Source of the DNA: Thermoleptolyngbya sichuanensis A183
GTDB taxonomy: Bacteria > Cyanobacteriota > Cyanobacteriia > Elainellales > Elainellaceae
Assembly (NCBI RefSeq): GCF_013177315.1
Contig: NZ_CP053661.1
Location: 4,092,001 to 4,156,000, forward strand
Direction of reading: 5' to 3'
Length of the DNA: 64,000 nt
The notes under the pieces were generated by a model. It was not told where the DNA came from. It saw only the letters and a program-made list of their open reading frames with translations, and made no database searches. Numbering within the stretch: position 1 is the stretch's first letter; each line of letters starts with the position of its first letter. This document shows positions 57,808 to 61,529 of this stretch, one piece after another. A program made the position numbers and the translations under genes.

Positions 57808-58998
57808 ATGACCCAACGTTCCGATCGAATCTGCATTCTGGGCGGCGGGTTTGGAGGGCTATACACTGCCCTGCGCCTCAGCCAGTTGCCCTGGACGGAC
57901 GCAAAGCCAGAGATTGTGCTGGTAGATCAGCGCGATCGCTTCCTGTTTTTGCCGCTGCTCTACGAACTGGTGACTGGGGAACTGCAAACCTGGGAAGTGG
58001 CCCCTCCGTTTTCTGAACTGCTGGCCAACACAGGCATCCAGTTTCGCCAGGGAGCCGTTGCCCACATCGATGTCACCGCGCGTCAGGTTCAGCTTCAGGA
58101 TGGCGCAACGCTGGACTATGACCGCCTCGTGCTGGCGCTGGGCGGCGAAACGCCCCTGACGATGGCTCCTGGCGTAGCAGAACACGCCATTCCCTTCCGC
58201 TCGATTGACGATGCCTATCGGCTGCAAGAGCGGCTAAGAATCCTCGAAGCCTCTCCCGCTGACCGGGTTCGTGTGGCCATTGTGGGCGCGGGCTACAGCG
58301 GCGTGGAACTGGCCTGCAAGCTGGCAGACCGGCTGGGCGATCGCGGCCGGGTGCGCCTCGTGGAGTTGGGCGACCAGATCTTGAGAAACTCTCCCAGCTT
58401 TAACCGCGACGCTGCGACAAAAGCATTGGAAAAGCGCGGAGTCTGGATCGATCTGGAAACCCAGGTGACCGAGGTGACCGCAGACAGCATCTCGCTAGAC
58501 TATCGCGGCAAGGTGGACACCCTTCCGGTAGACATTGTGATGTGGACGGTGGGCAACAAAGTGCCAGACTTTGTGAAAAGCCTGCCTCTGCCCCAGACCG
58601 AGCGCGGGCAACTCCTCGTCACCCCGACCCTGCAAGTGGTAGACTATCCTGAAATCTTTGCGCTGGGCGACCTGGCCGAGATGAAGGATGCCGACGGGCA
58701 AAAAGTGCCTGCAACGGCTCAGGCCGCGTTTCAGGCAGCAGACTATGCGGGGTGGAATGTGTGGGCCTCTCTGAGCGATCGCCCCCTGTTGCCCTTCCTC
58801 TATCAGCACTTAGGCGAGATGCTCTCTCTTGGCACCACAGAAGCCACCCTCACGGGCCTCGGCGTTTCCCTCGACGGCCCCGCCGCGCATCTCTTTCGTC
58901 GCCTTGCCTACCTCTATCGAATGCCCACCTTCGACCATCAAATCAAAGTAGGGCTGAACTGGATCACGAAACCGATTCGGGATCTGCTGGCAAGCTGA
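57808..58998 (+). CDS. ndbB: Type 2 NAD(P)H dehydrogenase / quinone oxidoreductase, NdbB-like
   Basis: The 396-residue FAD enzyme has the N-terminal dinucleotide motif ILGGGFGGLYTALRL, a second one for NAD(P)H (VAIVGAGYSGVELAC) and the FAD-contacting ALGDLAEM. A C-terminal amphipathic part (KVGLNWITKPIRDLL) could attach to the membrane. Length and sequence style fit cyanobacterial NdbB, which reduces demethylphylloquinone in phylloquinone synthesis; another type 2 NDH role is possible. Confidence 0.82.
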   Translation: MTQRSDRICILGGGFGGLYTALRLSQLPWTDAKPEIVLVDQRDRFLFLPLLYELVTGELQTWEVAPPFSELLANTGIQFRQGAVAHIDVTARQVQLQDGATLDYDRLVLALGGETPLTMAPGVAEHAIPFRSIDDAYRLQERLRILEASPADRVRVAIVGAGYSGVELACKLADRLGDRGRVRLVELGDQILRNSPSFNRDAATKALEKRGVWIDLETQVTEVTADSISLDYRGKVDTLPVDIVMWTVGNKVPDFVKSLPLPQTERGQLLVTPTLQVVDYPEIFALGDLAEMKDADGQKVPATAQAAFQAADYAGWNVWASLSDRPLLPFLYQHLGEMLSLGTTEATLTGLGVSLDGPAAHLFRRLAYLYRMPTFDHQIKVGLNWITKPIRDLLAS

Positions 58999-58999
58999 A

Positions 59000-59240
59000 G
59001 GGGAAGAAGGAAGAAGGAAGAACGAAGAGAGAAGAGCGAAAAAAGAAGAGATTCTGTTCTGTGTTCTTTCCAGCTCCTGCTTTAGCGCCCCTTGGGGCTG
59101 CTTCGCTCGTCTCTCCCCAGCGCATTAATCCGCCAACCCCAACCCCCAACTTTCACACTTCCTTCTTCCCTCTTCGTTCTTCCCTCTTCCTTTTTCGTTC
59201 TTCCTTCTTCGTTCTTCCCTCTTCGTTCTTCCTCCTTTCA
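59000..59240. terminator. Purine/pyrimidine array after the NdbB-like gene
   Basis: A purine run (GAAGGAAGAACGAAGAGAGA type, about 59000-59052) follows the stop at once. After ~105 bp comes a long pyrimidine run (CTTCGTTCTTCCCTCTTCG type, about 59158-59237). The arms are complementary and could fold into a large hairpin. It is the same sequence family as at 18262 and 43984. Confidence 0.6.
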
Positions 59241-59260
59241 TCCCCCCCTCCCCTCCCCCA

Positions 59261-59905
59261 ATGCCCCTCCCCAAGGTCATTTTCTTTGATGCAGTTGGTA
59301 CGCTGTTTGGTGTTCGCGGCAGTGTGGGTGCGGTGTATGCCGATCTGGCCAAGCGGTTTGGGGTGACGGTGGATGCAGCGGCGGTGGATCGGGCGTTTTT
59401 CAAAAGCTTTAAGGCAGCAACCCCGATGGCGTTTCCAGGAACCGACCCGACGGAGATTCCCGACCGCGAATATGCCTGGTGGTGGGCGATCGCCGCTGAG
59501 ACGTTTCAAGAAGTTGGCGTGCTGAACCAGTTTGCGGATTTTTCTGCTTTCTTCAGTGCGCTTTACGACCACTTCGCTGCCGCAGACCCGTGGTTTGTCT
59601 ATGCCGACACGCTGGCCACGCTAGATCAGTGGCGCGATCGCGGTGTGGAACTGGGTGTGCTGTCCAACTTTGACTCCCGGATTCACAGCGTGCTGGAAGC
59701 GCTGGATTTGGCCAGCTACTTCTCCTCAGTCACGATTTCCACCGAAGCAGGCGTATCCAAGCCAGATGCCCAAATCTTTCAACTGGCGCTGAAAAAGCAC
59801 GACTGCCCGCCGGATGCCGCATGGCACGTCGGCGACAGTTTCAGAGAAGACTATGAAGGCGCGACGCGGGCGGGGCTGCGGGGCATCTGGCTGAAGCGGG
59901 AATAG
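59261..59905 (+). CDS. HAD-superfamily hydrolase (HDHD3-like)
   Basis: This 214-residue HAD phosphatase-like protein has motif I FFDAVGTLF (D-A-V-G-T, lacking the second Asp of classic phosphatases, as in HDHD3/dehalogenase-like members), motif II VLSNFDSR, motif III with K in SKPDAQIF and motif IV HVGDSFREDYEGA. The cap is helical. The substrate is unknown. Confidence 0.85.
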   Translation: MPLPKVIFFDAVGTLFGVRGSVGAVYADLAKRFGVTVDAAAVDRAFFKSFKAATPMAFPGTDPTEIPDREYAWWWAIAAETFQEVGVLNQFADFSAFFSALYDHFAAADPWFVYADTLATLDQWRDRGVELGVLSNFDSRIHSVLEALDLASYFSSVTISTEAGVSKPDAQIFQLALKKHDCPPDAAWHVGDSFREDYEGATRAGLRGIWLKRE

Positions 59906-60003: not shown

Positions 60004-60181
60004 TCGCTCTTAGAGGATGTTTGAAAAGTCCTACTGTTTGTAGCAAAGCGTGCAAGATCCCCCTGAATCCCCCTTAAAAAGGAGGACTTTAAGGCGGTTT
60101 CCCCCCTTTTTAAGGGGGGCTAGGGGGGATCTCTGAGTGCTATAGCATTACAGGTGATACCTTTTCAAACTCGCTCTTAGA
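60004..60181. mobile_element. MITE-like element with flanking 11-bp direct repeat
   Basis: The inverted ends GTTTGAAAAG (60019-60028) and CTTTTCAAAC (60161-60170) bound a short non-coding body with an inner palindrome (GATCCCCC near 60056 and GGGGGATC near 60124) of a type common in cyanobacteria. TCGCTCTTAGA occurs on both sides (60004-60014 and 60171-60181) and looks like a target duplication. The right copy contains the stop codon of the DUF4231 gene. Confidence 0.72.
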
Positions 60182-60731
60182 ACCCTCTCTGTTGGGCAGA
60201 GTCTTCGTGTCTCTTGGCAGTGGCAACGGTCGTTGAGTAAGTTTCTACGTCTTTTTGGATAATATCCTCGACTTGGCTGGCGAAGAAGTCGAACGCCTCT
60301 TCATGGGTCGGGTATTGTGTGTATAGCCCGGTCAGTTGAGAAAACTGCCAGCCCTGTGTTTTCAGCGACTCTACGCTGCGGCGGTAGTGTCGCCAGCGCT
60401 CGCCGTACTTGAAAAATTCCTCGACTGCTGCACAGGCCGCAACCACTGTGCTGATGCCTACCGTAGACCAGCGGATAATGGCATCCGCCCTGCGGTTATC
60501 AACGTTATTCAGGCTCACCAGCACTGGCACCAGCACGCCGCCAATAATCGTGGTCAGCCGCAGCCGATAGTAGCGATCGCGTGCCCTGCCGGCCTTGTTC
60601 TCCATCCACAGCACCTGATCCAGCCAGCGCGATCGCAGGTAGTGCTGCTGGGCTTCGTCTAGCTCCAAGGTGTTAAACAAGCTCCCAAAGTCTTGCTTAA
60701 GCTGCTCGCGGTAGGGGTCTTTGCTAGCCAT
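60177..60731 (-). CDS. DUF4231 (SLATT-like) two-helix membrane protein
   Basis: The 184-residue protein has an N-terminal helical segment, two transmembrane helices (about 58-78 TTIIGGVLVPVLVSL; about 88-108 STVGISTVVAACAAV) and a C-terminal cytoplasmic helical tail. This is the DUF4231 layout, related to the SLATT domains proposed to form pores next to nucleotide-sensing partners. It lies 30 bp after the SLOG gene on the same strand, so the two are almost surely co-transcribed. A MITE-like element abuts its stop codon. Confidence 0.8.
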   Translation of the reverse strand: MASKDPYREQLKQDFGSLFNTLELDEAQQHYLRSRWLDQVLWMENKAGRARDRYYRLRLTTIIGGVLVPVLVSLNNVDNRRADAIIRWSTVGISTVVAACAAVEEFFKYGERWRHYRRSVESLKTQGWQFSQLTGLYTQYPTHEEAFDFFASQVEDIIQKDVETYSTTVATAKRHEDSAQQRGF

Positions 60732-60761
60732 AATGCACCCTGGGTTGTGGAGCTAAAGTCC

Positions 60762-61529
60762 TCATGAGAGGATTTTACTCGATAAAATCTCGTGAATCAC
60801 ACAGGACAACTTTTCTGAGCTACGCAGATCGACGGCTTGCATCAGCCCCGATGCCACCAGTTTGCGGGCGCGTTCATCAGTGATTTTTCCAGCCAGCGCA
60901 TCGGCCAGCGCGTCGGCGGTGCGGCCACTACCTGCCACAACGAGCAACGGACGGCCCTGCCCCACGTTGTGCGACGCATCACTCCAGGTGACTTCGCCGC
61001 CGTTGATCAGCACCGTCAGCGAAGGAAAACCATCGGACAGGGCGCTGGCCAGTCGAGCGATCCAGGCAGACTCGTCGCCCCAATAGCGACCAGGCACCAG
61101 CACAAAATGCGTATGGTTTGGCTCTAGATTGGCGGCATCAGGGTGGGACGCACGTCCCCCCGGCAAAATCGCCATCTGCTCTGGCGCAATGCCAATGAGC
61201 GGAAAGCTGCCGTGGGTGCGGCGACGCGCCTGCCCCATCATCCGCATAATGCCTGTGTCTGTGCCGCCATCAATCACGGCTGCACCGAGGGTTTCCGCTA
61301 GGGGCGCTAAAACTTTTACAAAGAGCGATCGCACTTGTGCCTGATCTTCGCGGCTAAGCTTGCCTGCGCCACCTACCACCACCAGCACAGGCCGCTTTTT
61401 GACTAAGCCCAACTGGTCAAGCACCAGAGGCAACTCGCGATCTGCCTCAGCCCGCAGAACAGCCGCCACAGCGCCATCTTCAAATTGGATATCGAAGCGG
61501 TTTTCCATCTTGTACACGCTTGAAATCAT
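60762..61529 (-). CDS. TRPM-like SLOG (LSDAT) domain protein
   Basis: The 255-residue protein is a single Rossmann-like SLOG domain of the TRPM/LSDAT branch. The marks are VLVVVGGAGKLS, AAVIDGGTDTGIMRMMGQA (glycine-rich GGTxTGIM, as in TRPM), and LLVVAGSGRTADALADAL (the GSGRxAD motif of TRPM). SLOG domains bind or process nucleotide-derived ligands such as ADP-ribose derivatives. No membrane segment is present; the membrane partner is the DUF4231 gene 30 bp downstream. The start is the ATG at 61529; an ATG at 61508 is possible. Confidence 0.82.
   Translation of the reverse strand: MISSVYKMENRFDIQFEDGAVAAVLRAEADRELPLVLDQLGLVKKRPVLVVVGGAGKLSREDQAQVRSLFVKVLAPLAETLGAAVIDGGTDTGIMRMMGQARRRTHGSFPLIGIAPEQMAILPGGRASHPDAANLEPNHTHFVLVPGRYWGDESAWIARLASALSDGFPSLTVLINGGEVTWSDASHNVGQGRPLLVVAGSGRTADALADALAGKITDERARKLVASGLMQAVDLRSSEKLSCVIHEILSSKILS

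Follow-up and report, generated by a model that had tools for sequence, protein, structure and literature searches.

The gene pair described here, an LSDAT-type SLOG gene followed by a DUF4231/SLATT gene for a two-helix membrane protein, is, in our moderately confident judgement, the receptor-effector half of a TIR-signalled nucleotide conflict or cell-death system. It lies in the window, by which we mean the whole stretch of 64,000 nucleotides that was analysed, within a cyanobacterial genome of 5.5 Mb in a single contig. Pairs of the same kind recur among cyanobacteria and exist as single-chain fusions in other bacteria; the membrane partner is swapped for other effectors at some loci, and TIR genes lie near the sensor gene more often than their densities predict.

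The gene pair and its genomic site

A sequence-only reading of the window had proposed a 255-residue SLOG gene and, 30 bp beyond it, a gene of the DUF4231/SLATT type, and both open reading frames were recovered on the minus strand at the positions given in Table 1. Profile searches bore out the two family assignments. The SLOG protein scored 238.8 bits against Pfam LSDAT_prok ('SLOG in TRPM, prokaryote'; cut-off 25.4) and also matched LSDAT_euk (4.1e-14), and the only other Pfam families listed for it, AA_kinase and LDcluster4, stayed under their cut-offs. A better match to a different Rossmann family, the outcome that would have told against the reading, did not appear: none outscored LSDAT in Pfam or Foldseek. 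The SLATT protein matched SLATT_1 both in Pfam (7.9e-9) and in NCBIfam (4.3e-35; 120.5 bits, cut-off 41). PADLOC offered no family for the SLOG protein and, for the SLATT protein, nothing beyond a weak ZorA match (E 0.011).

The first seven residues of the SLOG reading frame may be non-coding, as the column of M8 holds the start in 9 of 17 relatives and an internal methionine in a further five. Comparison with the orthologue J069 from the same genus gave dN/dS values, at a dS of about 1.6 that is near saturation, of 0.076 for SLOG and 0.065 for SLATT, and both genes look to be under purifying selection. A promoter scan was uninformative, returning one site with 1.0 expected.

Read from their open reading frames alone, the identified neighbours in the window (an NAD(P)/FAD-type oxidoreductase, a HAD hydrolase, a NifU-like protein and a GH57-like enzyme) look like housekeeping-type genes. 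The pair occupies this site also in G291, a second genome of the genus (contig of J069 and L046), in the order NifU - SLOG - SLATT - HAD. Among 27 other HAD-carrying relatives, over the 3-4 kb examined, the pair adjoined HAD in none; 18 of the 27 have the adjoining oxidoreductase. The pair was therefore probably gained, or moved to its present site, within the genus. LSDAT relatives were not found by a pattern scan of the viral_contigs set and had no tblastn match among 50,697 phage records; they occurred in 4 of 72,556 plasmid records. SLATT was not found in viral_contigs or plasmids.

Two features of the surrounding DNA may be recorded. A 161-bp MITE-like interspersed repeat with an internal inverted repeat (window 60020-60180) overlaps the SLATT stop codon, and about 40 near-full-length copies, of 90-100% identity, are spread over the genome. 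Between the oxidoreductase and HAD genes, at about 58960-59290, the window is of low complexity, with overlapping reading frames that read as repeated RSSFFVLPSSFF-like peptides.

Table 1. Features of the window pair and arrangements of related loci (L) and genomes (G)
Feature	Position or loci	Strand	Basis or remark
LSDAT-type SLOG gene, 255 aa	60762..61529	-	Pfam LSDAT_prok 4e-71
SLOG gene, alternative start	codon 8, 61508	-	possible true start
GGTDTGIM nucleotide-loop motif, residues 88-95	61245..61268	-	conservation, 82 SLOGs
W150 codon, aligned to TRPM2 Y295	61080..61082	-	profile alignment
GSGRTAD motif, residues 200-206; R203 aligned to TRPM2 R358	60912..60932	-	profile alignment
Intergenic gap, 30 bp	60732..60761	.	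sequence
DUF4231/SLATT two-helix membrane protein, 184 aa	60177..60731	-	Pfam DUF4231 2.7e-30
Predicted TM helix 1, residues about 59-77	60501..60557	-	hydropathy maximum
Predicted TM helix 2, residues about 85-107	60411..60479	-	hydropathy
Adjacent SLOG-SLATT pairs	G000 (window's genome), G002, G008, G022, G038, G052, G058, G119, G125, G183, G290		
Adjacent pairs, special form	G110, G117, G141, G274		divergent, truncated, convergent and tandem, respectively
DUF4231 unlinked to LSDAT (6/23)	G121, G135, G163, G199, G203, G207		
Tandem SLATT (four-helix by reading)	L040, L049, L064		Pfam-confirmed
Tandem SLATT	L074 (in HMM training), L120 (found)		local HMM
SLATT with C-terminal Phage_lysozyme	L055, L057, L111		Pfam
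SLATT with Phage_lysozyme	L061 (in HMM training), L065, L115, L118 (found)		local HMM
SLATT with GH19-type domain	L071, L134, L090		L071 and L134 over cut-off, L090 below
SLATT with Peptidase_C39_2	L139, L141		without or with GH19
Patatin beside SLOG	L042, L106, L122		all three patatin loci found
SLOG - patatin - TIR	L042, L106, L122	one strand	3/3 patatin loci found
SLOG - SLATT - TIR	L041, L097, L141 (two SLATTs)	one strand	
TIR adjoining SLOG, no effector between	G163 106 bp, L045 17 bp, L063 262 bp, L072 146 bp		

A TRPM2-like pocket in the sensor

Both glycine-rich motifs that the sequence-only reading had picked out, GGTDTGIM and GSGRTAD, are present (Table 1), and their conservation was counted over 82 distinct cyanobacterial SLOGs. 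Within the first, G88, G89, T90 and G93 are kept in all 82 sequences and D91 in 80; in the second, R203, at the position of TRPM2 R358, is kept in 82/82. H139 is likewise universal (82/82) and E153 nearly so (79/82), while W150, which stands where TRPM2 has Y295, is tryptophan in 80/82. The position of TRPM2 R302 is I157 here and holds I, L or M throughout, the arginine being kept in 0/82. Many polar residues of the pocket (D87, T90, H139, R203) are invariant.

A profile of 18 sequences (A1) retrieved TRPM2 channels from the PDB, at best with 3.5e-19. The AlphaFold2 model of the window SLOG (pLDDT 93.7) found its best structural match in nvTRPM2 (9jje_A; Z 25.8, rmsd 2.4 over 232 residues), and the 50 best Foldseek matches listed were TRPM channels, with the exception of 9nw3_6A, a ciliary chain named 'cation channel family protein'. 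In human TRPM2, according to PMC6759353, the MHR1/2 domain is the ligand receptor, in which Y295 clamps ADP-ribose (ADPR), R358 touches its phosphates and R302 a ribose. As judged from the alignment, a TRPM2-type pocket appears to be kept in the cyanobacterial SLOGs, though not identical; their ligand may be related to ADPR without being ADPR itself.

The likeness to TRPM2 has clear bounds. By sequence and predicted fold the N-terminal MHR1/2 of the channel is the same sensor domain, LSDAT, and the cyanobacterial SLOGs keep, at the aligned positions, an aromatic residue for the clamp and the phosphate-binding arginine. However, the bacterial SLOG is separate and soluble, R302 is not kept, there is no NUDT9H, and the partner is a SLATT protein rather than a TRP channel. 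The sequence-only description of the pair as a 'split TRPM' is only an analogy, because SLATT shows no relation to the TRP channel (no fold match in the PDB at E <= 0.001) and LSDAT-SLATT fusions occur in other bacteria.

Divergence in these positions was seen outside the cyanobacterial set. Both LSDAT-SLATT fused proteins lack an equivalent of R203, and that of Chlorohelix has EGI in place of GGT. An Embleya plasmid (L128:3752-5200) encodes an actinobacterial LSDAT reading frame of 482 aa with no SLATT part, in which R203 is kept and H139/H141 are not.

The membrane protein

The flanks of the two predicted helices carry charges of +5 before TM1, +1 in the loop and +4 after TM2, from which alone an N-in, C-in topology, with both termini cytoplasmic, is predicted. 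The AF2 model is all helical (pLDDT 88.2), and a PDB fold search returned no match at E <= 0.001. VIA rows for the model (best Z 10.2) were long-helix arrangements, for example BAR domains, and were given no weight. Designed PPR proteins were also rejected as relatives: the best reached 3e-7 with no single stretch passing, and the matches were taken as chance because they covered only about 27 helix residues. Formation of a pore by the window SLATT is a candidate function.

The BFVD collection of viral structures did contain matches to the SLATT model, several lower rows bearing the SLATT name; the best was A0A5B8IQA6 of Mimiviridae sp. ChoanoV1, a choanoflagellate giant virus (E 1.9e-10, TMq 0.83). 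Giant viruses, then, encode proteins with a predicted fold similar to that of the window SLATT.

Recurrence of the pair

LSDAT was present in 23 of 291 cyanobacterial genomes, and in 15 of these 23 a SLATT/DUF4231 gene lay within 1.5 kb of it; adjacency is thus not confined to the window's genome, the other circumstance that could have undone the sequence-only reading. DUF4231 occurs anywhere in 21/23 LSDAT-positive genomes, and its high-scoring kind (at least 93 bits) in 19/23. The remaining two genomes are G223, with patatin beside SLOG, and G270, with no DUF4231 despite LSDAT. In the reverse direction, LSDAT exceeded its cut-off in none of 24 rechecked genomes positive for DUF4231 and negative for LSDAT, eight of which gave weak matches below the cut-off (E 0.009-0.098); the high-scoring DUF4231 was found in G229 alone among these 24.

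A second set of loci is biased, as it comprises the best 80 of 249 from genome_contigs, all cyanobacterial and rich in Nostoc; the draw of 23 genomes is the fairer of the two. At 48 of these best 80 loci a SLATT-containing gene follows SLOG in the same orientation at a distance of up to 1.5 kb (two visibly broken copies, L058 and L081, included), with a gap of at most 13 bp in 33 of the 48. The sensor gene therefore comes first in most adjacent pairs, as had been noted in the window. From that order, ligand sensing followed by membrane opening had been suggested, and we would retain this as a putative sequence of events. SLATT lies upstream of SLOG or on the opposite strand in L054, L116 and L119, and a SLATT-type reading frame occurs anywhere in the locus at 55 of the best 80 of 249. 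The partners sought were absent within 1.5 kb at 18/80 loci, and four more loci end too early for this to be judged.

The two proteins also occur as one. LSDAT, DUF4231 and SLATT_1 stand on a single chain in two plasmid proteins, from Candidatus Chlorohelix (Chloroflexota) and Hymenobacter (Bacteroidota).

Two further arrangements were observed. In L031:6503-8817 and L110:5911-8225, apparently from the same genome since their contigs share the length 274483, two different LSDAT genes enclose one SLATT gene. An intact SLOG stands beside a broken or short SLATT in G117 (L033:6230-6667; one TAG), L058:6854-7396 and L081:7061-7387; such broken copies would fit a costly effector.

Exchange of effectors

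The partner of the sensor varies (Table 1): SLATT is doubled, extended by lysozyme, GH19-type or peptidase domains, or replaced by patatin. The common thread of these effectors is damage to membrane or wall. The SLATT genes of L134 and L139 have no SLOG linkage in their own genomes. In PHROGs, phage endolysin families are matched by the endolysin-like domains of both L055 and L071, and cyanophage lysozymes are up to 58% identical to the lysozyme part of L055. By analogy, a SLATT-endolysin may be likened to phage holin and endolysin in one chain. Origin of the fusion from a phage lysis cassette is nevertheless disfavoured, because none of the 555 phage records with a match to the SLATT-lysozyme protein covers 80% of it and the 15 matches listed cover its C-terminal third only. 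In Hymenobacter a Glyco_hydro_108 gene lies just upstream of the LSDAT-SLATT fusion.

A protein of 448 aa is encoded near SLATT-lysozyme genes (L055:9083-10426, L061:9882-11228, L065:9381-10727 and others). The one member searched, from L061, had no match in Pfam or NCBIfam; in PHROGs the C-terminal half matched an endolysin (6.4e-25) and phrog_3000, of function not known (2e-37). An initial guess of an L,D-transpeptidase was dropped. Between the two genes lies a conserved 111-aa protein (cluster c16) with no PHROGs match.

Linkage to TIR genes

A recurrent neighbour cluster of the sensor genes (c2) consists of TIR proteins, many of them TIR-WD40. TIR reading frames occur at 12 of the best 80 of 249 loci, and Table 1 lists the arrangements in which TIR follows an effector or adjoins SLOG; the TIR frame of L041 is only 105 aa long, and small ORF calls separate the TIR gene from patatin in L122 (two) and from SLATT in L097 (one). 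Pfam ThsB_TIR also matches the TIRs of L042, L097 and L122. In the fairer draw, 5 of 23 genomes had a TIR gene no more than 5 kb from SLOG, against 0.186 expected from TIR densities (P 6.5e-7), and such P values are optimistic, since the LSDAT-positive genomes are related and independence is overstated. The other 18, the window's genome among them, had no TIR at that distance. TIR_2 was found in 23/23 LSDAT-positive genomes and in 10 of 33 LSDAT-negative ones, the latter being a non-random draw plus G229, picked for its SLATT (9/32 without G229; 7/20 among LSDAT-negative genomes of at least 4.1 Mb).

The single TIR_2 hit of the window's genome is a 1034-aa reading frame far from the pair (G000:C1:136944-140048). 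When its first 352 residues were searched against 24 genomes, the best match outside the genus was the SLOG-adjacent TIR of G163, from another family, with 49% identity over 331 aa that include the region before the TIR domain. Through this phylogenetic linkage the match suggests, and does not prove, that the distant TIR is a partner in trans of the SLOG-SLATT pair.

Other neighbours were observed in the same context. In G229 (C263, L174), LSDAT-negative with a high-scoring SLATT, a TPR-S (Tetratricopeptide Repeats-Sensor) gene and then a TIR gene stand beside SLATT; TPR-S lies beside SLOG in L112 and is fused to SLATT_1 in L116, and L071 has a similar long TPR-S-like protein (local HMM only). 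TPR-S may be another sensor belonging to this network. The sole TIR gene of G002 adjoins two C39/GH19 wall-hydrolase-like genes.

Proposed mechanism and alternatives

A TIR NADase would sense a threat, putatively a phage, and make an ADP-ribose-type nucleotide; the enzyme would be supplied by the distant TIR_2 gene in the window's genome and from the same gene run in some others. The LSDAT SLOG would bind this nucleotide in its TRPM2-type pocket and would, presumably through contact, change the state of SLATT, or of patatin or a SLATT-endolysin at other loci. SLATT would then permeabilise the membrane, and the cell would stop or die. This chain from TIR to membrane damage is obtained by joining what is known of TIR/SLOG signalling in Thoeris with the pairing, swapping and TIR linkage described above. 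Several of the observations given earlier count against it: the replacement of R302 throughout, the lack of R203 in both fused proteins, the 18 of 23 genomes with no TIR near SLOG, the loci that have none of the partners sought, the short TIR frame of L041 and the small ORF calls in L122 and L097, the absence of a PADLOC family for SLOG, the housekeeping-type neighbours and the lack of LSDAT matches among phage records.

TM-Macro is an alternative ThsA effector form in Thoeris. Neither it nor SIR2-SLOG is present at the window locus, where Pfam finds LSDAT alone together with SLATT, and a TIR gene in the same run, as in Thoeris, is likewise absent there and present in L042, L106, L122, L041, L097 and L141. 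According to the Thoeris literature, isomers of cyclic ADPR are the products of TIR enzymes, and a SIR2-SLOG effector reads such a signal. The systems resemble each other in having a SLOG sensor linked to a TIR gene and a killing effector, the latter presumed in our case. They differ in that the SLOG here is stand-alone and of the LSDAT kind, the effectors are SLATT, patatin and SLATT-endolysin rather than SIR2, WD40 repeats occur in many of the TIRs, and TIR is often unlinked. DRT10, composed of a reverse transcriptase, an ncRNA and SLATT, offers a second comparison: according to a preprint (PMC12632851) phage defence by this system depends on its SLATT protein, and SLATT is the presumed membrane effector in both, whereas that system is built on a reverse transcriptase and ours pairs SLATT with a predicted nucleotide-binding protein.

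Could the SLOG protein be an enzyme, such as an N-glycosidase or nucleotide hydrolase like the LOG-clade SLOGs, that makes or destroys the signal, with SLATT sensing the product? The many invariant polar residues of the pocket (D87, T90, H139, R203) may exceed what passive binding demands, and enzymes exist among other SLOG clades, as PMC9503650 describes. Several of these invariant residues occur in TRPM2 too, however, and the nearest structures are those of TRPM MHR1/2, a ligand receptor in TRPM2; we consider catalysis unlikely. A physiological channel, tuned by SLOG to NAD/ADPR, redox or osmotic stress and with no role in conflict, would suit the chromosomal site among apparently ordinary genes, the purifying selection on both genes and the many Nostoc-type genomes with the two-gene form. 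Such a benign function is quite unlikely in our estimation: exchange for patatin and endolysins misfits it, LSDAT is patchily distributed (23/291 genomes), and the pair adjoins HAD in the two genomes of the genus and in none of 27 other HAD-carrying relatives.

Gene order, tight spacing and the degraded SLATT copies next to intact SLOG in L033/G117 (one TAG) and L058 would also be compatible with a toxin-antitoxin-like arrangement, in which SLOG restrains a constitutively toxic SLATT until ligand or SLOG is lost. Single-chain LSDAT-SLATT fusions speak against this, as do the 6/23 genomes in which the two genes are unlinked and the invariant pocket, which suggests use of a ligand; we regard it as very unlikely. 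We thus return to the TIR-signalled receptor-effector pair as our preferred reading. A broader proposal is more tentative, and we would call it possible, somewhat short of probable: that a cyanobacterial TIR signals to a stand-alone TRPM-type LSDAT receptor with interchangeable killers (SLATT pore, SLATT-endolysin, patatin lipase), and that ADPR gating of TRPM2 descends from, or mirrors, a bacterial suicide circuit.

Significance

As related by citing papers, Burroughs et al. (2015) named SLOG/LSDAT, predicted SLATT to be a nucleotide-responsive pore and predicted SLOG-SLATT systems; priority for the TIR link, the patatin swap and the endolysin fusions relative to that work is uncertain. Literature searches on LSDAT, SLOG, DUF4231, SLATT and bacterial TRPM, covering titles, the openings of abstracts and selected passages, yielded neither a TIR-LSDAT link nor an endolysin fusion, and no report of what bacterial LSDAT proteins do. 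What is new here is the variation of partners, the TIR linkage and the match of the window-genome TIR to a SLOG-adjacent TIR.

The domain that senses ADP-ribose in TRPM2 is also that of the bacterial LSDAT proteins. Their linkage to TIR genes points to a likely class of ligand, the conserved pocket singles out the residues of interest, and the arrangement is available in compact three-gene runs (e.g. Calothrix L106, G223). If true, the proposal would describe a Thoeris-like type of immunity with swappable effectors that lyse membrane or wall, and would suggest an ancestry for the nucleotide gating of animal channels.
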